18,856 bases of DNA from Burkholderiales bacterium UBA6064 (GTDB lineage Bacteria; Pseudomonadota; Gammaproteobacteria; Burkholderiales; Burkholderiaceae_B): contig DIYC01000128.1 of assembly GCA_002428895.1 (NCBI GenBank), positions 21,352-40,207 of the forward strand, written 5' to 3'. Each line of letters begins with the position of its first letter. Position 1 is the stretch's first letter. A program made the translations under genes and the position numbers. Of this stretch, positions 155 through 17,961 are shown piece by piece. The notes beneath the pieces were generated by a model, which was given only the letters and a program-made list of their open reading frames with translations, searched no databases and was not told where the DNA came from.

Positions 155-808
155 ATGTTTGATACAATTAATCCAGTTTCACTGATTATCACTATTGCTT
201 CGTTGGCAGTTATCCCTTTAATTGCAGTAACAGCCACCTCCTTTCTTAAAATTTCAGCGGTTTTAATGATTCTTCGGAATGCCATCGGTGTTCAGCAAGT
301 ACCTTCCAATATGGTGCTTTATGGCGTTGCCATGGTGATGACCTTTATCGTGATGGGTGGCGTATTCAAAGAAGCGGGTGAGCGTTTTGCCCCAAACGGC
401 GCAATTCCTGATGGGGGTACACAAATCATCGAAGCAATTGATAGAGCATTGCCACCTTTTAAATCATTTATGCTGAAGCATACTCGACCAGATTATCACG
501 ATAGTTTTTATGAAACAGCAGTTAAGTTTCAAGAAGCGAATGCTTCTGTACCGGTTAACAAAAATGATCTTTTTGTTTTATTGCCTTCTTTTGTCGCATC
601 TGAGCTCGCAGAAGCCTTTTTGTTGGGTGTTTTAATCTATTTACCGTTTGTGATTATCGATCTTGCTACATCAAGTATTTTGATGGCTCTGGGGATGATG
701 ATGGTCTCTCCGATGTCGATTACAGTTCCGATTAAAATTATGTTGTTTGTTGCAATCGAAGGTTGGGCCAAGATATTTAACGGGCTGATTGGGTCTTATT
801 TGGGGTAG
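155..808 (+). CDS. sctR: SctR, export-gate membrane protein
   Basis: This 217-residue integral membrane protein has the length of YscR/SpaP/FliP family members. SctR forms the pentameric core of the SctR5S4T1 export gate in the inner membrane, through which unfolded substrates pass. The signature segment at residues 30-57 includes LKIS, LRNAIGVQQVP and NMVLYG. Hydrophobic helices lie near residues 8-28, 55-70, 147-172 and 174-205. A polar periplasmic stretch, about residues 70-145, separates the two hydrophobic halves, as in the family. The start ATG follows the sctQ stop by 2 bp, and sctS starts 3 bp downstream, so the genes are surely cotranscribed. Nothing is missing. Confidence 0.97.
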   Translation: MFDTINPVSLIITIASLAVIPLIAVTATSFLKISAVLMILRNAIGVQQVPSNMVLYGVAMVMTFIVMGGVFKEAGERFAPNGAIPDGGTQIIEAIDRALPPFKSFMLKHTRPDYHDSFYETAVKFQEANASVPVNKNDLFVLLPSFVASELAEAFLLGVLIYLPFVIIDLATSSILMALGMMMVSPMSITVPIKIMLFVAIEGWAKIFNGLIGSYLG

Positions 809-811
809 CTC

Positions 812-1063
812 ATGTTAATGTATTACGTAAAACAGTCACTTTGGCTAATCTTGGTTGTGGGTGGGCCGCTCGTTTTGTTTACCATGTTTGTGGGATTGCT
901 TTTGGGTTTTTGTCAGGCCATATTTCAATTGCAAGATCAAGCTTTTCCGTTTGGCGTCAAGTTGGTTGGTAGCGTGATGATTCTAATTTTATTAGGGCCG
1001 TGGATGTCGGAGCAAGTCATGGTTTTTACTAACAATATTCTTGATGTGATGGCTAGCATCTAA
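812..1063 (+). CDS. sctS: SctS, export-gate membrane protein
   Basis: This 83-residue protein has two hydrophobic hairpin helices, matching the size of the SctS/FliQ family (about 85-90 residues). SctS wraps the SctR ring and helps gate the export channel. The diagnostic loop reads 'AIFQLQDQAFPFGVKLVG' (about residues 35-52), the conserved Q-x-Q-E/D-Q-x-x-x-F-x-x-K segment of the family, and 'GPWM' sits near residue 63. Either ATG 812 or ATG 818 could be the start; the first is kept. The gene sits 3 bp after sctR and abuts sctT with no gap. Confidence 0.96.
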   Translation: MLMYYVKQSLWLILVVGGPLVLFTMFVGLLLGFCQAIFQLQDQAFPFGVKLVGSVMILILLGPWMSEQVMVFTNNILDVMASI

Positions 1064-1873
1064 ATGGTTGATTATTTTGCTTCAAATGTAGATTCATTAA
1101 GGCATTTTATCTATTTGATGGCTTTTCATCTTCCTCGAAGTTTGATTTTTATTTTTTTCTTTCCCTTGTTTGGTAAAGGTTTTGGACAAGGCGGTTTTAT
1201 AAAAATAGCAGTGTGTGGTGCCATTTTATTAGCGCCTGTAAGCACATTTATGGGGGTTTATGAAAGAACGCCAGTGGTGCCTGCTTTAACTGTAATTACC
1301 TCAATTAGTGAGGTGTTTATTGGCACATTACTGGGCTTAACCATGGCAATTCCTTATTACGTTTTTAAAGCGTATGGTGCGCTAATTGATGTGTATAGGG
1401 GAGCAACATTTGCAGCGCAAGCTTCTGGTGGTACAGATACTGGTAGCGAAGAGCTACCTCTAGAAAGTTTGTTTGGTTTAATTTTTGGAGCAATTATACT
1501 GGCAGGGCCAGGATTACCCGCGATTACTAAGCATTTATTAAATAGTTATTTAATACTGCCCCCAGGTAGCCTAGAAATTATTGCCTTTAAGGCATGGGGC
1601 GAGACGCTCATTCACTTGCTTGCAGATCATGTGGTTTTAGCATTTATTTTATCAGGCCCAATCTTGGTTATTATTTTGCTCGTTGAAGTGTGTATGCAAA
1701 TTGTCTCTGCTTTTACCCCGCAAATGCAAGTCTACTCGATTCAATTTGGGTTTAGATCAATTGCAGCGATTGGTGCATTGTTGCTTTTTTTAAATTTTAC
1801 AGAAGACGAAGTGTTTTTTCTTCTCGAAACACATAGCATTGCACTTTCGACGCTGATGGAGAATGTTAAATGA
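1064..1873 (+). CDS. sctT: SctT, export-gate membrane protein
   Basis: This 269-residue polytopic membrane protein is close to the usual size of SctT/YscT/SpaR/FliR (about 260). One copy caps the SctR/S helical export gate. It has about six hydrophobic segments. The 'GALIDVYRGATFA' stretch around residue 107 corresponds to the family's conserved G-x-x-x-D-x-x-R-G motif. The start ATG comes directly after the sctS TAA with no spacer. The gene ends in an ATGA overlap with sctU, implying translational coupling. Position and topology make the call secure. Confidence 0.95.
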   Translation: MVDYFASNVDSLRHFIYLMAFHLPRSLIFIFFFPLFGKGFGQGGFIKIAVCGAILLAPVSTFMGVYERTPVVPALTVITSISEVFIGTLLGLTMAIPYYVFKAYGALIDVYRGATFAAQASGGTDTGSEELPLESLFGLIFGAIILAGPGLPAITKHLLNSYLILPPGSLEIIAFKAWGETLIHLLADHVVLAFILSGPILVIILLVEVCMQIVSAFTPQMQVYSIQFGFRSIAAIGALLLFLNFTEDEVFFLLETHSIALSTLMENVK

Positions 1874-2934
1874 GTGGAGAAAAAACCGAAGAAGCTACCG
1901 ATAAAAAGAAAGAGGACTCGCGAAAAAAAGGTCAGGTAGCCATGAGCAAAGACATGCAGACTTTGCTGAAAATTATCTTTTTTTATCTGGTTTTCTTTTC
2001 AATGGCAGAAGGTATCGGTAGTCGATTTCAAAAAGATTTTTCACTACTCGTCAATAATACATTTAGTGGCAATATTAATTATTCCGAAGTAATCGACCTC
2101 ATGCTAAGTCTGAGTTTATATCTTCTTCTTCCACTTGTAGGCGTGTGCTTGTTAGTGGGATTGCTTTCAACATGGATGCAAACTGGGTTTGTCATTGCCC
2201 CAGAAGCAGTTATGCCTTCGTTTAAAAAAATGAATTTTATTTCTAACATTAAAAACATGTTTTCAAAGAAGTCGATGATACAGCTGAATTTGTCTGTCGT
2301 TAAAATTGTAGTCTTAGCGATTGTTGCTTTCTTATTGATCGTTGAATTTTCTACTGAAATTGTATTGAGTTATCGAGTAAGCATCTCTGACTTTTTTTCA
2401 ATTTTAGCGTACTTACTCAAAGTCATGATTTTTGGTGCGCTGGCAGTGTTTATTGTTTTGGCAGTCATCGATTGGTTTACCGTCATTCTTGATCATAAGA
2501 AAAATATGATGATGAGTAAAAATGAAGTTAAAGATGAAAGAAAGCAGCAAAACGGTGATCCCATGCTCAAAGGAAAGCGTAAAAGTATGCACCAAAGTTT
2601 GATTAATTCAACTTTGTCTAGTGCGTCAAGCGCCAAAGCAGTGGTGGCTAATCCAACACATATTTCTGTAGCCTTAGACTATGAACCAGGAAAGCACGAT
2701 ATTCCTTTTATTGTGTGCATGGGCGAGGGTCAAGACGCATTGGTTATTCGAAAAAAAGCACTTGAAAATGGTATTCCTATCATCAGAAGCGTATCTTTTG
2801 CTAGGCAGCTTTATGCGGAATGTGAAGAAAATCAATATATACAAGAACAGCATTTGAAAATGGCTGCCGAAGTTTTTAAATTGGTATTTTCGATTAATCC
2901 AAAATTGGCACTCAAATCGTCGGATAAAAAATAA
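1870..2934 (+). CDS. sctU: SctU, export-gate autoprotease / substrate-specificity switch
   Basis: This 354-residue protein has exactly the typical length of YscU/SpaS family members. SctU sits beside the export gate and self-cleaves, which changes the substrate class from early (rod/needle) to late (translocators/effectors). The N-terminus begins with 'SGEKTEEAT..KKEDSRKKGQ', the usual E-K-T-E-x-A-T and K-K-x-x-D-x-R-K-K-G-Q motif. About four hydrophobic helices follow (near residues 30-50, 76-102, 133-160 and 177-205). The cytoplasmic cleavage motif N261-P262-T263-H264 is intact, so cleavage between N261 and P262 is expected. It overlaps sctT by 4 bp. It is the last gene of the tightly packed block; a 144 bp spacer follows. 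Confidence 0.97.
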   Translation: MSGEKTEEATDKKKEDSRKKGQVAMSKDMQTLLKIIFFYLVFFSMAEGIGSRFQKDFSLLVNNTFSGNINYSEVIDLMLSLSLYLLLPLVGVCLLVGLLSTWMQTGFVIAPEAVMPSFKKMNFISNIKNMFSKKSMIQLNLSVVKIVVLAIVAFLLIVEFSTEIVLSYRVSISDFFSILAYLLKVMIFGALAVFIVLAVIDWFTVILDHKKNMMMSKNEVKDERKQQNGDPMLKGKRKSMHQSLINSTLSSASSAKAVVANPTHISVALDYEPGKHDIPFIVCMGEGQDALVIRKKALENGIPIIRSVSFARQLYAECEENQYIQEQHLKMAAEVFKLVFSINPKLALKSSDKK

Positions 2935-3078: not shown

Positions 3079-4155
3079 ATGGATATTAGTTATTTGGGGT
3101 TAATACTAAGATTTGTTCCGCATATTTTGGTGATAACTCTTCTGGGATTGGCTATTTATTATTTTTATACTTTGTATGTGGCTAAAGCCAGAGAGTTGTC
3201 TAAAACACTTATTTGGATTACAGACATTGTTCGTACCATGCGTTCAGGTGCTCCCGATACTCGGCAGGCAGGTCTTGCCAAAATTTTTAAAAACACAATT
3301 CTTGAGAATAATTGGGTTGAGTTCTCTCGAACCTTGCATGAGCAGTATGAAGTACTAGAGGGGCGATCTCGTTTGAAAAAGCATCGCTTAACTGTTCCTT
3401 CTAATTATTTTTTTACTCCCGCAAGTATTATTGATAAACAATTACGAGTGAATTACTTTAAGCACTTACCGGGTCTTTTAACTAGTATTGGTATTATTGG
3501 TACTTTTTCGGGATTGCTTTATGGTCTTTCAACTTTTGATGCAACAAGCCCTGAGCGAATTAATTTAAGCGTTGGTTCTTTGTTGTCTGGAGTACGTGAT
3601 GCTTTTTATGCTTCGGCGTTTGCAATTACTCTGGCCATGGTAGTGACACACGTTGAAAAATTATTTTATCAGCGTTGTTTAAGTAGACTTGAAGATTTGA
3701 ATGACGCCATTAATGCTATGTTTGACGGTGGCGTCTATGAGGAATACATGGCTATTATCGCTTCCTCGGCTTCTTCTTCGGCTCGTAATCGCTCTCTTCC
3801 TGAGCCTATCCGAGCCCCATCTGTGTCAACCTCAAATATTAATCTTGGAGATCAACTGGATCAGCTCTTAAAGCCTCTGTTTGAGCATCTTGAAGATGCT
3901 CAACGTCAAATGGCTATTAATACAACAAAATCAATTGAAAAAGCTTTTGATGCTGCTAATGCAAAGCTGGCTTCACAAATTGAATCTGCTCTGCAAAGGC
4001 ACGTGCGAGTTCCTATAGACGGATTGGGAGCTAAAATATCTAGAAGCGCTTCCACTCAGGCCACAGAGGGTACTAAAGAGCGATTAAAAAAAATTATTCA
4101 AGAGCAAGGACAATCAGTAGATGGTACCGATGACGGTTCATCAAGGGTAGCATAA
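3079..4155 (+). CDS. ZorA-like MotA/TolQ/ExbB family channel protein
   Basis: This 358-residue inner-membrane protein is likely the ring-forming half of an ion-driven motor. Visible order: an N-terminal transmembrane helix (about residues 8-30), a cytoplasmic segment (30-126), then a helix pair at about 130-153 ('HLPGLLTSIGIIGTFSGLLY') and 167-190 ('SLLSGVRDAFYASAFAITLA'), then a helical, Ala/Gln-rich cytoplasmic tail (195-358). The three-helix layout and the P-x-L-x-x-x-G-x-x-G-T-F-x-G-L motif are typical of TolQ/ExbB/ZorA proteins. The 'FF....I' segment just before that helix pair is most like ZorA. The tail is far shorter than that of the canonical type I ZorA (over 700 residues). The partner gene starts 2 bp downstream. 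A flagellar MotA (four helices, about 290 residues) fits less well. Family membership is secure; the ZorA assignment is by motif memory, not by search. Confidence 0.75.
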   Translation: MDISYLGLILRFVPHILVITLLGLAIYYFYTLYVAKARELSKTLIWITDIVRTMRSGAPDTRQAGLAKIFKNTILENNWVEFSRTLHEQYEVLEGRSRLKKHRLTVPSNYFFTPASIIDKQLRVNYFKHLPGLLTSIGIIGTFSGLLYGLSTFDATSPERINLSVGSLLSGVRDAFYASAFAITLAMVVTHVEKLFYQRCLSRLEDLNDAINAMFDGGVYEEYMAIIASSASSSARNRSLPEPIRAPSVSTSNINLGDQLDQLLKPLFEHLEDAQRQMAINTTKSIEKAFDAANAKLASQIESALQRHVRVPIDGLGAKISRSASTQATEGTKERLKKIIQEQGQSVDGTDDGSSRVA

Positions 4156-4157
4156 AG

Positions 4158-4985
4158 ATGCTAAGATACCCTGTAGAGAGTGGTGCTTCCGAAGATGAAA
4201 TGGATAAACCTCATTGGATTTCTTATTCGGACTTAATGACTTCACTGATGATCTTGTTTTTGGTTGTTATGGTGGTTTCACTGACCAGAGTTTCGCAACA
4301 AACAATTCTTTTAAAAAATAGTATTCAAAAAGACGAGCAAATTGAAGACAACAAAGTAGAAAGCCCGCTTGAAAAGCAAATCAAGACTGAGCCAGAAGAG
4401 TTGGTCGTTTCAACTTCACAAGTGCAACGTCAAATTGACATCATAACTTTTTGCGAAGATTTAAAAACTGAAATTTCTCTTCAGGGTTTGCAAGCGAATG
4501 TCAATTGTGATAAGCAGGTCATCGATTTTGGGGTTGCGGGTCGTTTTGCTTCTGGTAGTTACGTGTTGCCCCCAGAGGGTCAAGAGGCAATTAAAAAACT
4601 GGTGCCTTTGGTCTTAAATAATGCCCAGTCTGAGTTAGGTCAAAAATGGTTTAAACGTGTTCAAATAAAGGGTTATACCGATATTGACGGGTCGTATCTT
4701 TACAATCTTCATTTAAGTTTAAAGCGTTCCGAATGGGTGATGTGCGAAATTCTTAAAACAGATTCTACTGGAGCGGTTCAATTAACATCTGATGAACGAA
4801 TTTTAGCTCGGCAAATTTTTCTTGCAGGGGGAGTTTCCTTTAATGATCAATTGTCTAGCAAAGAAGAAAGTCGTCGGGTTGAATTGAAGCTTGAATACTA
4901 TGAAGTCGATGAATTTTTAGATCGTGAGCCGAAAGTTGATAAATTGTTGTTTTCAGATAATACCGAAGAGGTTTGTCAAATTTAG
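4158..4985 (+). CDS. ZorB-like OmpA/MotB-domain stator partner
   Basis: This 275-residue protein is likely the peptidoglycan-anchored half of the motor. A short cytoplasmic N-terminus leads to 'WISYSDLMTSLMILFLVVMV' (20-39). It holds a single transmembrane helix starting with D25, equivalent to the proton-binding Asp of MotB/ZorB. W-x-S-x-S-D-L-M-x-x-L is very close to ZorB. A polar periplasmic linker follows (45-110), then an OmpA-like domain (about 118-245). Peptidoglycan-binding features are visible: G-Y-T-D-I-D-G (172-178), N183-x-x-L-S-x-x-R190 and the terminal R239-R240-V-E. The start is 2 bp after the ZorA-like stop, so the two are translated together. No helicase, nuclease or other Zorya effector gene adjoins. 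A role in secretion rather than defence is inferred only from location. Confidence 0.75.
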   Translation: MLRYPVESGASEDEMDKPHWISYSDLMTSLMILFLVVMVVSLTRVSQQTILLKNSIQKDEQIEDNKVESPLEKQIKTEPEELVVSTSQVQRQIDIITFCEDLKTEISLQGLQANVNCDKQVIDFGVAGRFASGSYVLPPEGQEAIKKLVPLVLNNAQSELGQKWFKRVQIKGYTDIDGSYLYNLHLSLKRSEWVMCEILKTDSTGAVQLTSDERILARQIFLAGGVSFNDQLSSKEESRRVELKLEYYEVDEFLDREPKVDKLLFSDNTEEVCQI

Positions 4986-5021: not shown

Positions 5022-5070
5022 AAAAATTAACACCTAAACATAGGGTTGGTTTATTTTAAAGGTGCAAATT

Positions 5071-5511
5071 ATGTCCGATTGGTTATCCGTTAACAATGCA
5101 GAAGCGTCTAGTATCAGTGGCAAGTTAGGTGCACAGCGTTTAGAGCCCGATGCTGTCACTAAAGAGAGATTTTCTGATCTCCTAAAAGGGTTTGATGTGG
5201 GTTTAAAATCGAGTAAAACAGTACTTGAGCCACTATCCCCTGAAAAAAGAGAGATTCCTAAATCTCTGGATCAGCGGATTATTAAAGACATTACTGGTTT
5301 GGAGGCTGGATTCGAAAAAATCTTGAATATACAAGATCATAACGCAACTTACCATTCCGAGCTCTCTAAAACTGAGGAGCTTGCGCCAACCGCTCAAATT
5401 TTGTTTGACTACAGTACTTTTAGTACCCGCTATTATTTGGCAACTAATTATGCCCATGAAGCGGGTGTTAAAACTTCTGAAGAAATGCAGATTTTTACAA
5501 AAAGCCGTTAG
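5071..5511 (+). CDS. Rod-like small T3SS protein (SctI candidate) upstream of sctJ
   Basis: 146 residues with ATG 5071, chosen because AAAGG (5058-5062) lies 8 bp upstream; the in-frame GTG at 5062 overlaps that site. The N-terminus is polar and unstructured-looking, as in secreted T3SS subunits. The C-terminal 35 residues (about 111-146, ending 'EEMQIFTKSR') can be laid without gaps on the C-terminal helix of inner-rod proteins such as MxiI as I recall it, including a Y, the K-T pair and a final K-S. It lies directly upstream of sctJ, the place of yscI in Ysc systems. SctI forms the inner rod/needle adapter. A second rod-like protein (12053-12427) competes for the role, so this is a candidate only. 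Confidence 0.4.
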   Translation: MSDWLSVNNAEASSISGKLGAQRLEPDAVTKERFSDLLKGFDVGLKSSKTVLEPLSPEKREIPKSLDQRIIKDITGLEAGFEKILNIQDHNATYHSELSKTEELAPTAQILFDYSTFSTRYYLATNYAHEAGVKTSEEMQIFTKSR

Positions 5512-5534
5512 TCAATTTTAAGGTGAATAAAGCA

Positions 5535-6410
5535 ATGATTCAACGAATAAGGTATTTGATTTTCGTCGTTTTGTTAGCGATGGTTGCTGCTTGTTCACCT
5601 AAAGTTACATTATTTAATCAACTCAGCGAGGCTGAGGCTAACGAAGTTTATTCTGTGCTTTTAAGGTCTGGTTTTGACGTTGAAAAGTCTCAGTTAGAAG
5701 AGGGTTTTATTGTTCAGGTGCCTAAAAGTATGGCGGGTGAGGCTTTGGATTTGTTGTCTGCTCAGGGCTTGCCAAGAGATAGAAAAAAGTCCATGAATGA
5801 TATTTTCCCTGAAAATTCTATGATTTCTTCGCCCTTGCAAGAAAGGGCTAGATACCTGTTTGCGCTTTCGCAAGAACTAGAGCGTACTTTAATGACAATT
5901 GATGGTGTGATAGAAGCTCGTGTTCATATTGTTTTACCAGAGCGCTCTGTGGTGAACGAGAAAATCTCTCCTTCTTCGGTTTCTGTTTTTGTGAAGCACA
6001 ATGAAACTTCGCCGTTTCCTGCGTATCTGAGTCAAATTCGAGAACTGATTGTTAGTAGTATCCCCACCATGAGTAAGGAAAACATTAAAGATGTCGTTTC
6101 TATCGTTGCTATTCCGGTTCCTAGTCGTTTAGAACAGCCATTGTCTTTGATTTGGTTTGGGCCTTTTGCAATTAAAACCGAAGATCGGGTATATTTCCTT
6201 ACTTTGATTTATGGCTTAATTGGGTTATGGTCTTTATCAATCGGGGCTATTTACCTTGCAGTCGTTGAACCCGCAAGAAGACCTGCTTTTCTACAAAAAT
6301 TATTTAAATCCAAGGGACAAGAGGAAGATGAGCTGCAATCTGAAGAAACCGCTGAAGATTCTAATCTCACCGATCGTGATGATACCAAAAAATCGGAAGG
6401 AGGTAGATAA
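5535..6410 (+). CDS. sctJ: SctJ, inner-membrane ring lipoprotein
   Basis: 291 residues from ATG 5535. The in-frame GTG at 5523 overlaps the AAGG (5520-5523) that serves as the ribosome binding site, so the ATG is preferred. SctJ builds the inner of the two concentric inner-membrane rings. A lipoprotein signal ends in 'LLAMVAAC', giving a lipidated C20 as in YscJ/PrgK. Two ring-building domains follow: the first with 'LFNQLSEAEANEVYSVL' and the second with 'MTIDGVIEARVHIVLPE', both family signatures. A C-terminal transmembrane helix spans about residues 219-245, followed by a charged cytoplasmic tail rich in E/D/K. Its stop overlaps the sctK start (TAATG). Confidence 0.95.
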   Translation: MIQRIRYLIFVVLLAMVAACSPKVTLFNQLSEAEANEVYSVLLRSGFDVEKSQLEEGFIVQVPKSMAGEALDLLSAQGLPRDRKKSMNDIFPENSMISSPLQERARYLFALSQELERTLMTIDGVIEARVHIVLPERSVVNEKISPSSVSVFVKHNETSPFPAYLSQIRELIVSSIPTMSKENIKDVVSIVAIPVPSRLEQPLSLIWFGPFAIKTEDRVYFLTLIYGLIGLWSLSIGAIYLAVVEPARRPAFLQKLFKSKGQEEDELQSEETAEDSNLTDRDDTKKSEGGR

Positions 6411-7120
6411 TGGATTCTGCTTTAAAGAGTACTTGGTGGATGTGGTGGACTAATCCTCTTATTGAAATGCATCCTGATCAAAAAAAGCGTTTAATCGAAA
6501 ATTCGTCCGATATTGACAATATAACTTATGAAGAGATCGAGGCATTGAGGTTAACGTTAAGATTAGAAATTATTCCTGAACAAGGGATTATTTCAGATCC
6601 AATAATTGGTTTGCTTTCAATTATGGAAGACAAAGATCTTTATGAGTCCCAGCAAAAATTATCGGCTATTACTTTTGATAACACCATTTTAAAACTTACC
6701 CCAATTGAGTGGGGCGAAAAATTTGATGTTGTTGATAAAGATCATATTAGAGGGCTGATTACATTTAAAAGAGACGTTTTAAATAAAAATTTACAGTCAA
6801 TTGTTAGGGCGATTGAAACTGCTTGTGAAGTTTGGGAGAGAGAGGAGGGTTATTTATCGTTTTCCGATCGATTTAAAATCGTGGTGGCGTTATATCTTTC
6901 TTATCATTACCCTTGTTTTGCAAGGCGATGGTTTTTGACTTTGTCCGATTCTGTGTTGTTTGTGATGGATCGGATTATCGATGTAAGTGAAAGTGTTTTG
7001 CAAGAGTTTTTCAAAATAGTAGAACCTGAATTACTGGAATTAATTCAGTTTGTAAAGAATAAATATTCAGCAAACCGTAATATTGGTTTTGAAACGCTAG
7101 AGAATTCTGGTGCAAATTAG
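6410..7120 (+). CDS. sctK: SctK, sorting-platform adaptor
   Basis: 236 residues, near the length of YscK/PscK. SctK links the inner-membrane ring (SctD) to the SctQ pods of the sorting platform. Support is mainly positional: it lies exactly between sctJ and sctL, with TAATG coupling to sctJ. No transmembrane helix or signal is seen. The protein is soluble and helix-rich, with 'SYHYPCFARRWFLT' near residues 166-179. The extreme N-terminus is odd, with 'STWWMWWTNPL' holding four Trp in a short span. SctK proteins diverge strongly, so weak recognisable similarity is expected. Confidence 0.65.
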   Translation: MDSALKSTWWMWWTNPLIEMHPDQKKRLIENSSDIDNITYEEIEALRLTLRLEIIPEQGIISDPIIGLLSIMEDKDLYESQQKLSAITFDNTILKLTPIEWGEKFDVVDKDHIRGLITFKRDVLNKNLQSIVRAIETACEVWEREEGYLSFSDRFKIVVALYLSYHYPCFARRWFLTLSDSVLFVMDRIIDVSESVLQEFFKIVEPELLELIQFVKNKYSANRNIGFETLENSGAN

Positions 7121-7146: not shown

Positions 7147-7911
7147 ATGCTAAGTAGATTGCGAAAAATTGATTGGCCACAAGAGGTAGATCCAGTTGGT
7201 GGGATTATCAGTGCGAAATTAATCGGTCAAGTTGCTGATTATGAGCAATTAATTTGGCAGGCAGAGCAAAAAGCAGAATTGATTACTAAAGAAGCTCAGA
7301 AGCGAGTCTCTAAAGAGATTGAGCAGGTTCGTCAAGACGCCTCTAAAAAGCTGACCTCTGATTTCACAAAATTTAAACAAGTCCTTGTTAAGCATCGAGA
7401 TCAATTTGTGAAGAATTCCTCTACTTTATGTTTTGAAGTGACTAAAGCTGCTGTCAATAATTACTTAGTGTCGCTTGAGGAAGAAAAAAAGCTCAAAGAA
7501 ATGGTTGGTATTTTAATTGAAAAGTTGCATACGAATAAAAATTTAATTTTTGAGGCACATCCGAATCAAGTTAGTCTGGTTGGTTTGGTGATTGAGGGCT
7601 ATTTTTCAAACCTAATTAAGAAAGGTGACTACGAAGTTAGAGAAAATAACACACTGGTTTTGGATCAGTTACGAGTGAGTGGTGTGGAAGATGCATTTAT
7701 TGATGTCTCAATTAATAATTTGCTTTTAATTATTAATAACGAGTTGGAGTTGGTGAAAGAGCAGTTTGGCGCAGAACTTGAAAAAACACTTCCTTTTAAA
7801 CAAGGTGAAGTGAATGTGAATGAGGCTGTGGAGGATAAAAATTTGACTGGTTTAGTAGCTCAGAAGAGCTTAAAAAATACACTTGCAGTAAACCCATCAA
7901 GCAATACCTAA
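7147..7911 (+). CDS. sctL: SctL, ATPase stator of the T3SS
   Basis: 254 residues; AAGGA sits just upstream of the ATG. SctL links the ATPase SctN to SctQ and is related to F/V-ATPase peripheral stalks and FliH. The start 'RKIDWPQEVDPVGGIISA' resembles the N-terminal segment of YscL-type proteins. A long charged, heptad-like helix (about residues 33-95, rich in K/E/A/Q) gives the stalk, and a globular C-terminal half follows. It holds 'VSGVEDAFIDVSINNLL', which parallels the G-x-I-D-A-S-L segment of the family. The last 40 residues are a polar extension somewhat longer than usual. It follows sctK by 26 bp. Confidence 0.85.
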   Translation: MLSRLRKIDWPQEVDPVGGIISAKLIGQVADYEQLIWQAEQKAELITKEAQKRVSKEIEQVRQDASKKLTSDFTKFKQVLVKHRDQFVKNSSTLCFEVTKAAVNNYLVSLEEEKKLKEMVGILIEKLHTNKNLIFEAHPNQVSLVGLVIEGYFSNLIKKGDYEVRENNTLVLDQLRVSGVEDAFIDVSINNLLLIINNELELVKEQFGAELEKTLPFKQGEVNVNEAVEDKNLTGLVAQKSLKNTLAVNPSSNT

Positions 7912-7983: not shown

Positions 7984-9855
7984 ATGAAGTCTAGAAGTAA
8001 ATTATTAAATTTTATTGTGGTTATGATCCTGTGGAGCGGTTTTCCAGCCTTTGTTTGTGCAGAGCCAACCCAAGAGTTGCAGGTGTACATTGCACGTGAT
8101 GAGAGTCCCAGCCAAGTACTTTCTTATCTGCTAAGTTTATATGGTAGGGAAGTAGGTGGCACCACGCTTCCATCGAGGCCAGTCAGTGGTCGTTTTGAGG
8201 TTCGTTCTGTTGCTGATGTGATGGCGTACTTTGAACGGGCTTATAAAATCAGTTGGTACGAATACGGTTCAACCGTTTTTATTTATCGTCCTTCAAATTG
8301 GGCAACTGAGCGGTTTTATGTGGGCGAATATGATGCTTCAGCCGATTGGCAAGAAATGCTTGCTAATGCGGGTCTTAATCAACCTAAGTTTAATGTATTT
8401 TACTCTAGGCAACAAAAAGAATTGCTTGTTTCAGGGCCCAAAACTTATATCGATCAAGTCAAACGAACATTTCTCACCGATAAACCTGTTGAGGTTGTTA
8501 CAGAGCCTGAGCCTAAAAAGGAAGAAGAAAAGCAAAAGGAATTAATGATGTTCCCCCTTAGGTATGCCTCTGTTGAAGATAGAACGATTCAACTTCGCGA
8601 AGCTTCTTATACTACTCCTGGCATTTTAACTGTTTTAAAAGAAGTTTTATTGGGTTTAAATGAACAATCAGATTCTGAACCTAACGGTGATCCGTATGGC
8701 TTCCTTGCTAACGAAAATTTATCATCGTTGGCTCATCCGGCAACCACTGTTTCAACAGCAAGGGAATTGGTAACAAGCAGTGTACGTGGCGAAAATGCTG
8801 AGCCTTCCTCAGCATTTGGCGGACATGCTCCTAAATTGGGTCAAAATAGAGATCTTCAAAAAGAATCGATTCACACACCAGCAAAAAAATATGGAACTTT
8901 AGGGGCTAGTGGTCAAGGGGGGGTGTTTGTTGGGGCGGATTATCGAACCAATGCGATTTTAATTCGCGACTTCCCAGAGAAATACAACTATTATAAAGAA
9001 ATTATTGATCGACTAGATAAGCCAATTTCTATGATTGAAGTAGAGGCTATGTTGGTCGAGATTGATACGACAACTTTAAATCAGTTGGGTTTAGAGTTTG
9101 GTATTGGTGGTACGATGAATTTTGAGTTTCCTGCTCGAGACTCCCTTGCTAACCCCTCCCCTTTAATCAACGAAAGTCTTGTTGGCGCGAGTTCAATTGT
9201 GGATCCCAATACGTTTGTCGCTCGATTAAGGGCGCTTGCCTCAGACAAGCAGGCACGTGTTTTATCTCGTCCAACGATTGTGACGCAAGACAATGTGCCT
9301 GCATTCATCGATTTGTCTGAAACCTTATACCTTCAAGTACAAGGTGAGCGAGTTGCTCAAGTTGAGCGTGTTACTGCGGGTAGTTTGTTGCAAGTTACGC
9401 CTCGTTTAGTCGAGGATGGTAACCAAAGTCAAATTTTTATTAGTGTTGAAATTCAAGATGGTGTTTTGCAGCCAGGGTCTCAAGCAGCCTCTAATCCTAC
9501 GGTTCGAAATACTAAATTAAACACACAAGCACTCATAGATCGTGATAAAGCCATTTTGATTGGTGGTTATAACCGTGAAAAAAATTCTGAGATTGAGCAT
9601 AAAGTGCCTGTATTAGGTAGCCTACCTTTTGTGGGTGCTGCATTTAGATCAACAGAAAATGCAACACAAAGCTTTGTTCGTTTATTTTTGATTACTCCCA
9701 GAGTTTTGGCGCAACCTGCTTATTTTGCAAAGTCAACCAGAGATGCTGCCAAGCTCGTTCAAGAGAATTTCAAAAATTTTGACGAGGGCTCTGTTCAAGC
9801 GCCGCCTTCGCTTAGTCTCTATAAATTAGACTCGTCACTTAGCATACAGGAGTAA
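7984..9855 (+). CDS. sctC: SctC, outer-membrane secretin
   Basis: 623 residues, within the range of SctC secretins. It forms the outer-membrane ring through which the needle passes. A signal peptide (1-26, cleavage after F-V-C-A26) is followed by N0/N1 domains (about 30-165), containing 'SGRFEVRSVADVMAYFERAY'. An N3 domain is split by a polar, low-complexity linker (about 226-305). The secretin core carries 'MIEVEAMLVEIDTTTLNQLG', 'VLSRPTIVTQDNVPAFID' and 'PTVRNTKLNTQALI'. It ends with V541-P-V-L-G-S-L-P-F-V-G551, the hallmark of GspD/YscC proteins. A 72 bp spacer with AAAGG precedes the ATG. No pilotin gene is seen in the window. Confidence 0.97.
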   Translation: MKSRSKLLNFIVVMILWSGFPAFVCAEPTQELQVYIARDESPSQVLSYLLSLYGREVGGTTLPSRPVSGRFEVRSVADVMAYFERAYKISWYEYGSTVFIYRPSNWATERFYVGEYDASADWQEMLANAGLNQPKFNVFYSRQQKELLVSGPKTYIDQVKRTFLTDKPVEVVTEPEPKKEEEKQKELMMFPLRYASVEDRTIQLREASYTTPGILTVLKEVLLGLNEQSDSEPNGDPYGFLANENLSSLAHPATTVSTARELVTSSVRGENAEPSSAFGGHAPKLGQNRDLQKESIHTPAKKYGTLGASGQGGVFVGADYRTNAILIRDFPEKYNYYKEIIDRLDKPISMIEVEAMLVEIDTTTLNQLGLEFGIGGTMNFEFPARDSLANPSPLINESLVGASSIVDPNTFVARLRALASDKQARVLSRPTIVTQDNVPAFIDLSETLYLQVQGERVAQVERVTAGSLLQVTPRLVEDGNQSQIFISVEIQDGVLQPGSQAASNPTVRNTKLNTQALIDRDKAILIGGYNREKNSEIEHKVPVLGSLPFVGAAFRSTENATQSFVRLFLITPRVLAQPAYFAKSTRDAAKLVQENFKNFDEGSVQAPPSLSLYKLDSSLSIQE

Positions 9856-12052: not shown

Positions 12053-12427
12053 ATGCAGAGTTCTGGAATTGAAATGATGGAAATGTTAGCCGCTAGTAAC
12101 TCAAGTGGCGGGGCTGTCGGTAACTTTGGAAATACTGTTTCCTTTGAGCAAAAATCTGAGTTTGAAAAAATGCTTAATACAACTGTAGACAAAACGAGCG
12201 TAATTTCTGACAAGATGACAAAATTAATTAATTATGTTGAAGGAAAGTTCAACGAATCAAGCTTAGAGGTGGCTCGAAGTATTAAAAATTTTGAAGAAAC
12301 GGGCGCAGCGGTTGCGTTAATGTCTGCTAGCCACGAAGGAGCTAATAAATCCGTTATGGTGCAGTTGTGTGGTACGGTCGGCAAGAAATGCTCAGATCAT
12401 GCTGAACAGCTTTATAAACAACAGTAA
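12053..12427 (+). CDS. sctI: SctI-like inner rod protein
   Basis: 124 residues, small and polar, without a signal peptide. 'SFEQKSEFEKMLN' near residues 30-42 resembles the F-E-x-x-L segment that begins the folded part of YscI/HrpB-type rods. The C-terminal helix, 'NKSVMVQLCGTVGKK' followed by 'EQLYKQQ', lies without gaps on the rod C-terminus (about ten identical residues of 26 to MxiI as I recall it). SctI connects the export gate to the needle. The needle gene follows 19 bp downstream, and rod and needle genes are neighbours in several systems. The protein at 5071-5511 is a second rod-like candidate; this one is the stronger of the two. Confidence 0.5.
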   Translation: MQSSGIEMMEMLAASNSSGGAVGNFGNTVSFEQKSEFEKMLNTTVDKTSVISDKMTKLINYVEGKFNESSLEVARSIKNFEETGAAVALMSASHEGANKSVMVQLCGTVGKKCSDHAEQLYKQQ

Positions 12428-13526: not shown

Positions 13527-16500
13527 ATGACTACCTCTTCTGTTAATACCAATGTACCTACTGACTCTACTGGGTCTACTGAATCTGCTGTAGCTGACGA
13601 TGTCCAGATTAGTAATGGCCCGGAGTTGAAAGAGCATGAGGATGAGATTCTCACCCATCTTTTGTCTTTGCCGGAAGACAAATTGTCAGAGGAAGATAAA
13701 GCGTTGCTAGAGCAGATACAGAGCGGTAAGCTGGATGGTGAAGAAGGCAGCCCGAATGCTGAGATGAAATATATGTTGCTCTATACGATGATTTTGAAGT
13801 ATGGCGAGCCGAGTGGGCAGAATGGTAGTTCGGTCAAATTAGGGGATTTTACTTTTCATGAAGATTATGTTGGTCGAATGTCTGATATGATCACCAACCT
13901 GTTAACTCTTATGAAAGAGGGCGAGAAGTCAGAGTTTACAGCGGTTTTCTCTCAGTTTTTTGCAGATTTTGAGAAAACTGATGATCAGGGTGATACAGTT
14001 GTTAGCTCCCTTGAAGCTTTGTCCTCTTTCTTTTTGAGTTTGCCACAAGCTGCGCAAGACTTATTTTTTGATAACGACACTCCGATTGCAGATTTAAAGT
14101 TGCATTTCGAGAGTCTCGACGAGTTGTTAAGTGACGAAGATGATAGTCCACCAGAGTGGGTGACTGCTCGGCAGCAAGAAATTGCCACTCTTCTTTTTGA
14201 GGCATTATATCCAGAGGGTAAGCCACTGTCTGCTGATCAGGATCCGTTGTTTAATAAAATCGATAGCCTTGCTGTTGAAAGAACCCTTATTAATAATGGT
14301 GAGGATTTAAGTAAATCTATTGCTGGAGTTTTAGATGTTCTTAAAGGGGAAGAGGCTGACGCACTGTTGCCCTCAGCGCTTGAAAAATTGGTAGATGGTC
14401 TAACCATGCCACTTGATGAGGCAGAAAAAACTTTACTTCACATGGTGATTTTGCAGGTTGGTTTTGAAACTGCTGATGGTTGTGTCATTTTTCGCGATTT
14501 CGAGTTTAGTTCTGCAATGGTTGAGGGTATGAAACAAGGAGTCGCTGAAAGCTTCAAAGACCCAGATTTTTTAGCAGCACTTTTACCAATAATCAATCAA
14601 GCTGCGACATTGCATGCCGGTTCAGACAGCGATCTTTTGTTGAGCCAGATTGAGATTTTAGGGAGTTTAATTTCGGGTTTGCCACCAGACGTGCAGTCTA
14701 ATTTAGGTTTAACTGCGTCTGATGGTGTGAATTTAGAGTTAGCCGTGCTTGAGTTGGTAGAAGGCGGAAAGCATTCATCTGATCGATTTGATGCGGCGGC
14801 AACTGTTTCTAGTTTGCTTTTTAAGGTTCTGAATGGTGGTACGGCTTTAGTAGAACCGACTCTGGATGCAAATGGAAACTACATCAACGGGGGTATCCCA
14901 GGCAACAACCAAAGTGCTACTTGGTTTGATATGTTGAAGACTGGTGAGGTTGCTTATGCGTTTCAAATGGCTTCTGATTTTTACAGCACACTCGAAGCAG
15001 GAGAGTATTCGAATACTGCCTATAAGAACGCTCTTACCTTTTCATTCGTTTTAAATCCAGTGTTAGCCCGTGGCGAGTCTGGTCTGATTACTCAAGACCC
15101 AGCGGAAAATAGTTCTGATTTTTTGACGGAGGGTAGCAAAGCCAAATTGTCACCAGAAGATAGCGCTGCCTATGAGGGCATCATGTTTTTGCTTCAAATG
15201 GCACACGGAGGTAATTTTGAACCTCTTAAGCTTGACGCAGCGCAGCTAGAACTAATTAATCAAGCACGCTTAATGTTCGAAAACGGTCATGTTAAGCAGG
15301 GCATGATTTTATTGCTTCATGTCGTTAAGCCATTTTTTGATGCGTTTGAGCAACGGGTATCGACTGATGAGACTTTGAACAGAGTGATTGACTGTATTAA
15401 GACGTATGCTCAGAATAATATGCCCCAATCGGCTTCCCCAACTTCGCTTAGTTCACAACAAGAAGATGCTTTTGCAAACATGATTTACGCGCTTTATGGT
15501 GCAGACAAAGACCCTAAAGACTATGATCCCTATTCTGTAATGATAACCACAGATTTTAGTCTAGAATATACTGACGAACAAAAGGTAGCGATTAATAATT
15601 TTTTTGTGAGCATGGGCGGCAGTATCATGTTTCCTGAGGTGGCTGATGATCCAACTACCGCGGAATTAACTGCTACTGACTCAACTGCTACTGACTCAAC
15701 TGCTACTGACTCAACTACTACTGAGGAGACTACTACTGAGGAGACTACTACTGAGGAGACTACTCCTGCAGCACCAGTGGCTCAGCCTACCGTAGGTGTT
15801 TTGGAGACTTTGCCTGGGGTAATTGAAGGAGATCCAAATCTCAGTAATTATCCACCTCCAAGTGATGCTGGAGAGAATATGCCGATTTACGACACGATAA
15901 ATGAAGGCTTGAGCGGAAACTTAAAAGCAGAAGATGGCAGTGGTATGACTGAAGAACAAATGAAAGAACATAAGCAAGCACTTGCGTATGCTCAAAAACT
16001 TCGTGAGAAAGGTTTCACCGATGCAGCGCTTTTGATTGAGGCTAATGTTGCATTAAGTATGCTTCAACAAACTGGTCAAACCAGTGATTATTTTCCAGAC
16101 CTGACTCTTCCTGCGTCTATTAAGGAAAATGGGACTCTGCAGCTTCTGAAAATGGCTTCGGAAGATCCAGCTAACTTAGCTATTATCAGTCAAATCATGC
16201 TTCTGATGGGTGGCACAATGGGTTTTGACGAAGCTGATATAGAAGACATTCAGGGGAAAATGCAAGCGTATGAGTATTTTAAAAACATTGGTGACGAAAC
16301 TGCTGCCGAGATAATGCTGATAGAAATTGATATGAGAGCTCTCGATGCATTAGGAGCTGTTTCTAGTGACATTGGTGGCTTGCATAAGGCGATGTTTGAT
16401 GGGATATACAGTGGGATTTTCCAAGACCGCGTGCGCGAATTTGTGATGGATAATGGGATTTATGCTGGGTTGCGACTTAAAGCTAGAATGGTGGAAAACA

Positions 16501-16622
16501 TGCTAGCTATACAGATGGGTGCGGGCGACACCAGCATACATAAATATAGTGCAAACATGAAGCTCTTAGATGAAATTCTGAATAATTACAGACAATCTCT
16601 CCAAGTTGCGATTGGAGGATAG
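13527..16622 (+). CDS. Large acidic duplicated protein in the needle-tip/translocator position
   Basis: 1031 residues, not recognised as a named family. The start MTTSSVNTNVPTDSTGST is Ser/Thr-rich with no signal peptide, like T3SS export signals; the downstream translocator gene at 18000 starts similarly. It is strongly acidic and helical. Two stretches, about 79-230 and 298-440, share an ordered set of motifs: 'LLYTMIL'/'LLHMVIL', 'DFTF'/'DFEF', 'LSLPQAAQ'/'SGLPPDVQ' and 'IATLLFEAL'/'VSSLLFKVL'. A third, weaker copy may lie at about 549-640. The linker (TATDS)3(TTTEE)3 spans 715-744. The C-terminus is a helix pair ending 'KLLDEILNNYRQSLQVAIGG', recalling tip-protein C-termini. In lcrV-yopB-yopD order the tip gene lies here, so a giant tip or secreted protein is inferred. 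The ribosome binding site is poor (GGTG only). Confidence 0.8.
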   Translation: MTTSSVNTNVPTDSTGSTESAVADDVQISNGPELKEHEDEILTHLLSLPEDKLSEEDKALLEQIQSGKLDGEEGSPNAEMKYMLLYTMILKYGEPSGQNGSSVKLGDFTFHEDYVGRMSDMITNLLTLMKEGEKSEFTAVFSQFFADFEKTDDQGDTVVSSLEALSSFFLSLPQAAQDLFFDNDTPIADLKLHFESLDELLSDEDDSPPEWVTARQQEIATLLFEALYPEGKPLSADQDPLFNKIDSLAVERTLINNGEDLSKSIAGVLDVLKGEEADALLPSALEKLVDGLTMPLDEAEKTLLHMVILQVGFETADGCVIFRDFEFSSAMVEGMKQGVAESFKDPDFLAALLPIINQAATLHAGSDSDLLLSQIEILGSLISGLPPDVQSNLGLTASDGVNLELAVLELVEGGKHSSDRFDAAATVSSLLFKVLNGGTALVEPTLDANGNYINGGIPGNNQSATWFDMLKTGEVAYAFQMASDFYSTLEAGEYSNTAYKNALTFSFVLNPVLARGESGLITQDPAENSSDFLTEGSKAKLSPEDSAAYEGIMFLLQMAHGGNFEPLKLDAAQLELINQARLMFENGHVKQGMILLLHVVKPFFDAFEQRVSTDETLNRVIDCIKTYAQNNMPQSASPTSLSSQQEDAFANMIYALYGADKDPKDYDPYSVMITTDFSLEYTDEQKVAINNFFVSMGGSIMFPEVADDPTTAELTATDSTATDSTATDSTTTEETTTEETTTEETTPAAPVAQPTVGVLETLPGVIEGDPNLSNYPPPSDAGENMPIYDTINEGLSGNLKAEDGSGMTEEQMKEHKQALAYAQKLREKGFTDAALLIEANVALSMLQQTGQTSDYFPDLTLPASIKENGTLQLLKMASEDPANLAIISQIMLLMGGTMGFDEADIEDIQGKMQAYEYFKNIGDETAAEIMLIEIDMRALDALGAVSSDIGGLHKAMFDGIYSGIFQDRVREFVMDNGIYAGLRLKARMVENMLAIQMGAGDTSIHKYSANMKLLDEILNNYRQSLQVAIGG
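15669..15758 (+). repeat. Coding minisatellite, six 15-bp units
   Basis: Three units ACTGCTACTGACTCA (15669-15713) are followed by three units ACTACTACTGAGGAG (15714-15758). They encode TATDS x3 then TTTEE x3. The units are identical within each set, so copy number can change by slippage or recombination without breaking the frame. The stretch is a flexible linker between helical domains. Confidence 0.97.
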
Positions 16623-16632
16623 TGAGGATTTT

Positions 16633-17961
16633 GTGGAAAAAGTTAATTCTTCGTTGCCAGTAGATACAACCATTAATAGCTCTAATGAGGTTAAGGGCGC
16701 ACAGGCTTTGTTATCTGAGCATGTCTTGTCGCCAGAACAAAGATCTGAGATTGATGCTGCAGCTGGTCAAATGACGGGCGCATTTGAATATCAGGCAGCT
16801 GCTGAATTTTACGCAGCATTCGAATATTATCATAGTCCCAATCCAGACTCGGAGTTTGCTCAGTTGTATGATATGAGTACAAGCGAAGGAAGGGCTCAGT
16901 TTAAGAATGAGGTGTTGATTCCTTTGCAAAAGTCTAATCCTCAGTGGGCTGAGTATGACTTGTTGACCCAAGAGGGTATGTCCGCATTTAAAACGGAGGT
17001 ACTTGAACCCTTACAGACTAGCCCTTTGATGGCTGAATATGATTTGACTCAATACGATTTTAAAACAGTAAAGGGGCAGGAAAGTTTTGAGAGAGAAGTT
17101 GTGTATTTGTCGGTTGCTTTATTTATTTCTAAAGCAAGAGAAGCAGTGAGTCGTTTGATGGATTGTGCGTTTTCGCTACAGGAAGCGGCTGAACTAAAAA
17201 AAGCAGACCAAGCTCTTGAGCAAATGGAGCTTAAGATTAAAGAAAGCGAGGCTCAGAAAAAAGCGGGGTTTTTTGCAAAGCTAATTGGTGGCTTAGAGGT
17301 GGTCAGCTTAATTGTCAGTGTTGTTACGGTGGTTTTATTTCCATCGCCATTGACTATTGCTGCTTTAGGGTTTTCTCTTACTACGTTTGTTGATAGTAAA
17401 GTCGCACAGTTAACAGAAGAGGGTAAGTCACTAATGGATCGGCTTTCTGGGGCAATTGCGGATTTGATGAAAGATTGTTTAGGTGAGAGTGCAGCAGGAA
17501 TAATTGCTACGGTTATTGTTTTTACGGTATTGGCCGTTTGTATGTTTGTGGCAGCTAAGTCTGCTTCTAGTTTTTTGGGTTTGTCTAAAGCGGGTGTTCA
17601 AGCAGGTGCTACTAATGCGTCGGATGATATTGCGGAGGAAGCAGCGGCTAGTCTTTTAAAGCGATTAGAAGGTCAAGTGAAGACATTACTGCGTCCGATT
17701 GATACTGTCACCCCAGAAGGGGAACAAAAAATTGAGGCTCTTATGAGCGTGGTTGCTAAGGTTGGTGTACTCGGCGAGCTTATTGAGGTGATTCTAAATA
17801 ATATTAAATCTTATTTTTCTTATCAATCGGCTAAGCTTAAAACAAAAGTAACTGAAATTCAGGCTGATGTAACTGTGATTGATCAGATTATGACTCAGTT
17901 AATGAAAGACGGCTTTGCAGTAGCGGACTCAGTTAATTCTCTGCAACAGAATTTATCTTAA
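16633..17961 (+). CDS. sctE: SctE, hydrophobic translocator (YopB/IpaB/CopB-like)
   Basis: 442 residues from GTG 16633, with GAGG (16624-16627) 5 bp upstream. An in-frame TTG at 16606 would overlap the preceding gene and lacks a site. SctE inserts into the host membrane as part of the translocation pore. Features: a polar N-terminus; a threefold repeat (79-158); a predicted coiled coil (about 189-215, K/E/Q/A-rich); a first membrane hairpin helix (about 221-250, 'EVVSLIVSVVTVVLFPSPLT'); a second (about 288-309, 'AGIIATVIVFTVLAVCMFVA'); and a C-terminal helical region. This layout, with an amphipathic coil before two hydrophobic helices, is the family's. No dedicated chaperone gene precedes it. 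Confidence 0.8.
   Translation: MEKVNSSLPVDTTINSSNEVKGAQALLSEHVLSPEQRSEIDAAAGQMTGAFEYQAAAEFYAAFEYYHSPNPDSEFAQLYDMSTSEGRAQFKNEVLIPLQKSNPQWAEYDLLTQEGMSAFKTEVLEPLQTSPLMAEYDLTQYDFKTVKGQESFEREVVYLSVALFISKAREAVSRLMDCAFSLQEAAELKKADQALEQMELKIKESEAQKKAGFFAKLIGGLEVVSLIVSVVTVVLFPSPLTIAALGFSLTTFVDSKVAQLTEEGKSLMDRLSGAIADLMKDCLGESAAGIIATVIVFTVLAVCMFVAAKSASSFLGLSKAGVQAGATNASDDIAEEAAASLLKRLEGQVKTLLRPIDTVTPEGEQKIEALMSVVAKVGVLGELIEVILNNIKSYFSYQSAKLKTKVTEIQADVTVIDQIMTQLMKDGFAVADSVNSLQQNLS
16867..17106 (+). repeat. Threefold ~28-residue repeat in the SctE N-terminal domain
   Basis: Tandem coding repeats start at 16867, 16954 and 17038 (29, 28 and about 23 residues). Copies 1 and 2 share Y-D-x-x-T-x-E-G-x-x-x-F-K-x-E-V-L-x-P-L-Q-x-S. 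Copy 3 keeps Y-D-L, the spacing to G-x-E-x-F and E-x-E-V but has drifted. Confidence 0.85.

Follow-up and report, generated by a model that had tools for sequence, protein, structure and literature searches.

A tail-less ZorAB-type motor pair in one lineage of Limnobacter type III secretion loci suggests an injectisome with its own motor

Introduction

Why would a motor of the kind used in phage defence lie among the genes of an injectisome? The question is raised by two adjacent genes, here called ZA and ZB, in an 18,856-nucleotide stretch of DNA from Burkholderiales bacterium UBA6064 (the window; positions 21,352-40,207 of a 40.6-kb contig), part of a draft genome of 2.3 Mb, 85% complete, that belongs to the genus containing Limnobacter. 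The two genes are flanked by sctU upstream and by a block of sctJ, presumed sctK, sctL and sctC downstream, within the locus of a type III secretion system (T3SS). An initial annotation, made from the sequence alone, proposed that the injectisome recruited them as a ZorAB-like motor or, alternatively, that they are a passenger remnant of a defence system.

The structure of Zorya was reportedly described by Hu et al. in Nature in 2025. According to the available part of PMC11890865, anti-phage defence by Zorya requires a conserved ZorB aspartate, equivalent to D25 of ZB, together with the wall-binding residues of ZorB and the cytoplasmic extension of ZorA. The conserved neighbourhood that we describe below in Limnobacter suggests that one lineage of injectisomes has a motor of its own. 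ZA and ZB very probably constitute a dedicated T3SS motor, and the evidence for this dedication is genetic.

Results

ZA and ZB are homologues of the type I Zorya motor proteins

Both open reading frames (ORFs) of the proposed pair were confirmed, separated by 2 bp, and their products are homologues of ZorA1 and ZorB1 of type I Zorya. ZA matched the PADLOC ZorA1 profile with an expectation value (E) of 7.9e-68, in an alignment confined to profile positions 12-316 of 663, and the ZorA chains of the solved E. coli ZorAB (PDB 8qyy, 8qyk and 8qyd) at E of about 2e-45 to 5e-45, while Pfam MotA_ExbB reached only 0.036, below its cut-off. Its single-chain model, of moderate confidence (mean predicted local distance difference test, pLDDT, 71.6), contains the three membrane-length helices that had been read from the sequence plus one cytoplasmic helix, and its top Foldseek match was 8qyd_A (E=3.9e-16). 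ZB matched ZorB1 in PADLOC (4.4e-74) and NCBIfam (2e-77), the solved ZorB chain in the PDB (E ~1e-58), and Pfam MotB_plug (8.5e-6) and OmpA (2e-5, below cut-off); its model, likewise of a single chain (mean pLDDT 74), had 8qyd_F as top Foldseek match (E=1.3e-19), in agreement with the initial description of a partner with one membrane helix and an OmpA-like domain. Both proteins missed the NCBIfam equivalog cut-offs (206 of 750 bits for ZorA1, 260 of 400 for ZorB1). In profile and structure comparisons with ZorA/ZorB, MotAB and TolQR/ExbBD, the best matches were ZorA and ZorB, and a flagellar, Tol or Exb origin was ruled out, as the Zorya proteins matched far better in both sequence and fold.

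D25 of ZB, which the initial annotation had singled out, aligns with residue 26 of chain 8qyd_F and is invariant across 11 ZB/ZorB rows, as are T174, L186, R190, R239 and R240. The mutual spacing of T174, L186 and R190 equals, by our own mapping, that of T187, L199 and R203 of ZorB I in PMC11890865. In ZA, T142 and S179 stand in columns whose conservation reaches 95% or more among 70 short ZorA proteins and 90% or more among 63 long ones. From their relatives, D25, T142 and S179 are predicted to serve in the pore. Besides ZA, the window's own genome holds four MotA/TolQ/ExbB-family genes, and one ZB, so that ZA and ZB need not do the work of those genes.

The pair accompanies one T3SS lineage

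We surveyed 16 genomes of the genus for the same arrangement. In nine of them (G000, G002, G005, G006, G007, G009, G010, G012 and G013) an intact pair is followed by a small ORF and then sctJ. Among the 13 genomes with an SctJ over cut-off, 10 have an intact pair, one has a broken pair and two have none; six of the 10 intact pairs have a 4-nt overlap between the two genes. The association persists where the locus has been rearranged: in G005, G007, G009 and G012 the sctV-U block lies on the opposite strand some 20 kb off, with the pair at the start of the sctJ-K-L-C block. We considered whether these rearranged loci have a special gene ahead of the pair and rejected the idea; a 560-amino-acid gene of G007 matches MCE/LapA-type models weakly, its neighbours belong to acyl-CoA metabolism, and a near copy (96% alike) of these upstream genes stands at the T3SS of the pairless G011, which shows that they are not linked to the pair. 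No pair match was found in G011 and G014, whose T3SSs belong to other SctV lineages, or in G004 and G015, which have no SctJ over cut-off.

In G003 (L031 7746-10303), fragments of ZA and ZB adjoin a 478-amino-acid sctV fragment and no SctJ exceeds its cut-off, the T3SS and the pair having decayed jointly at one site. This site lies near a homologue of the 1338-amino-acid gene found upstream of sctV in the window's genome. G008 has the only intact pair unlinked to T3SS genes: the 4.4-kb contig that carries it has no sct gene, and a different contig holds the T3SS locus, with nothing of the pair between sctU and sctJ. The T3SS of G008, whose assembly has 6% contamination, still falls in the pair-bearing SctV clade, and congruence of ZA plus ZB with SctV for this genome gave a p value of 0.103 in the approximately unbiased test.

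In an SctV tree of 23 rows, which leaves out G010 (fragmented sctV) and the 10 of 17 T3SS loci of other genera (described below) that lack an SctV ORF of sufficient length, a single clade (support 100/99) unites the 11 genomes that carry the pair or remnants of it. G014 is sister to this clade, also at 100/99, at a point where long branches meet, as a warning of the tool indicated. Across the FlhA tree (15 genomes, G010 left out), T3SS lineages are patchy, with four changes, and do not follow the branching of the tree, which suggests that the locus has been exchanged or replaced within the genus. The pair tracks the T3SS in 3.8 of 4 independent contrasts and is opposed to it in none (p 0.125-0.25).

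These observations bear on another account of the linkage, namely that the pair has a function unrelated to secretion, was fixed near the T3SS by chance and has been inherited along with it. Such an account would fit the single origin to which the pair and the T3SS lineage each trace, the small number of independent contrasts, and the organization in G008, where the two genes stand apart as a unit of their own with a terminator-like hairpin after them (recognized by eye). We nevertheless consider it improbable, because the pair stays with the sctJ block through rearrangement, decayed with the T3SS in G003, and matches the patchy T3SS distribution on the FlhA tree in nearly every contrast.

A scan of 84,980 species by two peptide patterns gave 176 relatives, of which the best 80 were examined. 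Nine of these 80 are Limnobacter loci, with sctJ after the pair in seven; L090, on a G001 contig, has a cut ZA after sctU, and L096, on a G008 contig, has no sct gene. None of the other 71 loci has any sct match, and 57 of them encode ZorC and/or ZorD, so that among the best 80 of 176 the pair stands beside sct genes in Limnobacter only. Conversely, none of 17 T3SS loci from 15 other Burkholderiales genera (located via SctJ in 399 genomes; 5.8-20 kb each, with few sct genes recognized in some stretches) matched the ZA or the ZB profile at an E of 1 or below. The accessible parts of the literature searched, on Zorya, ZorAB or ExbB/ExbD with injectisomes and on the Limnobacter T3SS, report no such pair; the initial annotation, too, had remarked that no standard T3SS is known to have such a component.

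The motor has lost its tail and its effectors

ZA ends at 358 amino acids, compared with 630-730 for ZorA1 models, and lacks the long cytoplasmic tail. The short length is common to 10 proteins of the genus and 70 database proteins of 325-360 amino acids. A database search for relatives, confined to proteins 0.55-1.75 times the query length and therefore poor in long proteins partly by design, returned 292 proteins over threshold. Among the best 120 of these 292, the first 82 are at most 403 amino acids long; proteins of 325-345 amino acids score 414-610 bits and long ZorA proteins at most 253 bits, with one short protein (P0106, 338 amino acids, 236 bits, on a 2.1-kb contig) ranked amid the long ones. 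All six short proteins with an organism in their name, among the matches listed, are from Limnobacter.

The 70 short and 63 long proteins have the motor core in common (for example T142, S179 and a GIIGTF stretch). Eleven columns are fixed in the short family only, three of them (E302, R307 and K338) in the remaining cytoplasmic helix, where the alignment is less sure, and a C-terminal K-V/I-I-R-A motif of the short family is conserved at 57-90% per column. In the ZA model, helix 257-345 would span roughly 13 nm (89 x 0.15 nm, an estimate at low local confidence).

The effectors are missing as well, as the initial annotation had noted for the window. With the G009 proteins as queries (E 1e-5 and 1e-30), which very distant effectors could escape, ZorC and ZorD were found in none of the 15 genus genomes besides G009, at a completeness of 85% for the window's own genome and 65% for G010. 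G009 encodes ZorC and ZorD with a full-length ZorA (833 amino acids) and ZorB. This complete type I Zorya (L030 2093-10339), separate from the T3SS-linked pair in the same Limnobacter genome, provides a natural control.

In a ZA tree of 53 rows, which drew on 26 of the 71 loci from outside Limnobacter and on 16 short proteins from the list, 26 short rows fall on one side of a branch supported at 100/99, on a long stem (0.8), and this clade adjoins the type I ZorA proteins found in Neisseriales, in Oxalobacter and in G009. A Gammaproteobacteria metagenome-assembled genome carries another tail-less ZorA-like ORF (378 amino acids) with ZorB, without ZorC or ZorD and away from T3SS genes (L128 9938-11783); it belongs to a different ZorA branch from the Limnobacter short clade, indicating that tail-less ZorAB may have multiple origins.

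Both genes are under strong purifying selection. The ratio of non-synonymous to synonymous substitution rates (dN/dS) for ZA was 0.063 (G005/G012), 0.00 (G007/G013) and 0.028 (G007/G009, with dS of about 2), and for ZB, with the third comparison saturated, 0.017 and 0.023. With values of 0.016 and 0.051 for sctJ and 0.014 for sctC, the constraint on ZA and ZB is similar to that on core T3SS genes and stronger than that on sctK or sctL (0.15-0.20).

A passenger or cryptic anti-phage module, left over from Zorya by chance in the T3SS locus, would be consistent with the origin of ZA within type I Zorya, and defence genes often hop between loci. This alternative, raised in the initial annotation, now appears very improbable. 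The pair forms a single conserved clade with the T3SS over nine linked genomes, purifying selection on it is strong, ZorC and ZorD occur in one genome of 16, which has its own complete Zorya (although distant effectors may be missed), and the tail required for defence, according to the available text of PMC11890865, is missing. The selection and the effector distribution likewise disfavour an active or relic Zorya.

Gene content of the window

The T3SS locus of the window is genuine (Table 1). Upstream on the same contig lie sctV, sctD and sctN and two genes assigned as sctO and sctQ by placement; the G006 orthologue of this sctQ has a Pfam FliMN_C domain. SctV, SctN, SctD, SctU and SctL were recognized, each below the NCBIfam cut-off. 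In the accessible part of PMC2702493, Limnobacter sp. MED105 is scored 1 in what appears to be a T3SS column.

Table 1. Features of the window (positions in the window).
Feature	Position	Strand	Basis
SctR	155..808	+	above NCBIfam T3SS cut-off
SctS	812..1063	+	Pfam Bac_export_3
SctT	1064..1873	+	Pfam Bac_export_1
SctU	1870..2934	+	Pfam and NCBIfam, below NCBIfam cut-off
ZA, tail-less ZorA1-type motor subunit, 358 amino acids	3079..4155	+	ZorA1 homology, alignments, model, Foldseek
ZB, ZorB1-type partner, 275 amino acids, one membrane helix with D25 and OmpA-like peptidoglycan-binding domain	4158..4985	+	ZorB1 homology, alignments, model, Foldseek	
Small ORF, ZB-sctJ interval	5062..5511	+	no family match
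SctJ	5523..6410	+	above NCBIfam cut-off
SctK (presumed)	6410..7120	+	position alone; no family match
SctL	7147..7911	+	HrpE_YscL 2.1e-7, below cut-off
SctC secretin	7984..9855	+	above NCBIfam cut-off
Likely SctI/YscI-like inner-rod protein	12053..12427	+	via G006 orthologue

The flanking genes named in the initial annotation stood in part: sctU, sctJ, sctL and sctC were recognized, sctK is placed by position, with orthologues at the equivalent position in relatives, and the label sctI is unsupported for the small ORF before sctJ, since that ORF matches no family. Several relatives, including the pairless G014, have an ORF of similar size at this place. A likelier SctI lies further downstream: its orthologue in G006 (L026:1620-1982) matches Pfam T3SS_basalb_I at 1.3e-5, below cut-off, and the window copy gave no match in the Pfam scan. 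The two small proteins do not match each other.

In G002 (L088 11983-12183) and G001 (L087 720-920), a conserved hydrophobic ORF of 66 amino acids was also seen after ZB, ahead of the small ORF that precedes sctJ. After the T3SS genes come two long genes (13527-16622, 1031 amino acids, and 16606-17961, 451 amino acids), the second with two hydrophobic stretches by eye. Their products match no Pfam or NCBIfam family; this T3SS may secrete them or use them as translocators.

Discussion

With the long tail and ZorC/ZorD gone, the output of the motor must have another target, and linkage suggests only the T3SS as a partner. The initial proposal of a ZorAB-like pair recruited to the injectisome accords with the ZorA/ZorB best matches, the linkage in 9 of 16 genomes and the single clade. 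We propose that an ancestor of one Limnobacter T3SS lineage captured the pair once from type I Zorya. As in the solved homologues, ZA and ZB would assemble into a ZorA5ZorB2-type 5:2 motor with ion flow, which ZB would hold to the peptidoglycan. Ion flow past D25 would turn the ZA ring relative to the wall-held ZB; the short ZA helical bundle, including E302, R307 and K338, may touch the cytoplasmic SctQ/SctL and presumed SctK; and torque or force would thereby be delivered to the cytoplasmic platform of the injectisome, much as flagellar stators act on the C-ring.

The best explanation overall is that ZA and ZB are a Zorya motor captured once and now an accessory module of one injectisome lineage; with the mechanism included, we regard it as evenly poised between right and wrong. 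Judged by analogy, a mechanical or energetic action, as distinct from sensing, wall remodelling or another role, falls somewhat short of an even chance. More tentative still is the specific picture of an injectisome with its own stator, in which the captured phage-defence motor turns or energizes the T3SS independently of the ATPase and the export gate. Replacement of the T3SS ATPase is unsupported, as SctN is present and 69% alike in G002.

Several observations weigh against this interpretation, most directly against the pair as a core part. The initial annotation had regarded relatives that have the same T3SS, lack the pair and secrete normally as a point against recruitment, and two genomes fit this description in part, by gene content. 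The T3SS of G014, sister to the pair-bearing ones, has its local genes in the same order and no pair. In G001 (L023 7840-10439; L087 1-600), ZA is cut short next to an IS21 transposase, a piece of ZB with an in-frame stop lies on a separate contig, while sctJ, K, L, C, T, N and V, compared with those of G002, have dN/dS values of 0.009-0.075, at dS near saturation; with the other T3SS genes looking intact, the pair is either not strictly needed or recently lost. The pair is thus accessory and not a core T3SS component. Furthermore, four independent contrasts put statistical significance out of reach, and ZA of the window retains K338-I-I340 of the C-terminal motif without R341 and A342.

An accessory role would also suit a sensor of the envelope or of contact, in which wall strain, as the needle meets or pierces a target, causes ion flow or ZA movement that switches secretion on. 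According to a proposal in the available part of PMC11890865, peptidoglycan that is pushed down or damaged becomes bound by ZorB, and this binding opens the ZorA channel; Zorya-like sensing of this kind, the peptidoglycan-binding residues retained in ZB, and both the loss in G001 and the absence in G014 are consistent with a regulator. However, the locus encodes no known downstream signalling partner (no Pfam match among 8 downstream ORFs), and the ZorA tail needed in Zorya is gone, making a sensor unlikely in our assessment.

We assign a slightly lower likelihood to wall remodelling or anchoring, by which the motor would strain or open the wall for the basal body in place of a lytic enzyme, or would anchor the machine. 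ZB retains the OmpA-like fold, and no lytic-enzyme family was found among the locus proteins scanned with Pfam (10 + 8 + 10 from relatives), although the scan covered part of the locus ORFs and distant enzymes could escape it. Moreover, the pairless T3SS relatives (G014 and the 17 outside loci) manage without the pair, and an anchor alone would not need a conserved pore.

Flagella, gliding and type 9 secretion, nutrient uptake and phage defence all draw on ion-driven 5:2 motors, and the accessible text of PMC11890865 describes such motors in envelope machines that include a secretion system. If a captured Zorya motor does act in the injectisome, as we propose, the injectisome would be a new client for this family, and both the contribution of mechanical energy to type III secretion and the re-use of a defence motor after loss of its effectors and tail would become testable in a non-pathogen. 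The pairless sister locus of G014, the unlinked pair of G008 and the broken pair of G001 offer natural comparisons.

Compared with the canonical injectisome, the locus has SctR, S, T, U, J, L, C, V, N and D, and SctQ via its G006 orthologue, and it differs in the motor pair, which is absent from the 17 T3SS loci of other genera and from the available parts of the literature searched. With the flagellar stators MotAB and PomAB, the pair shares membership of an ion-driven, wall-anchored motor family, with PomA and the periplasmic domains of MotS, PomB and MotB appearing at lower Foldseek rank, yet ZA and ZB are much closer to ZorA and ZorB in sequence and fold. To our knowledge, T3SSs have no FliG, the partner of the flagellar stator. 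TolQR, ExbBD and GldLM, the last of which we take to be the type 9 secretion motor, are 5:2 ion-driven motors for envelope machines, in the case of GldLM for secretion, as ZA and ZB would be if they assemble likewise; ExbB is reached by ZA only at a Foldseek E of 0.01, and ZB differs in having an OmpA-like wall-binding domain. The closest known system is the ZorA-ZorB motor of type I Zorya (PDB 8qyd, 8vvn), which ZA and ZB resemble in sequence, fold, pore aspartate and threonine/serine residues, peptidoglycan-binding domain and gene adjacency, and from which they differ in a ZA that stops at 358 amino acids where the Zorya of G009 has a ZorA of 833, in the absence of ZorC and ZorD, and in their location within a T3SS locus.

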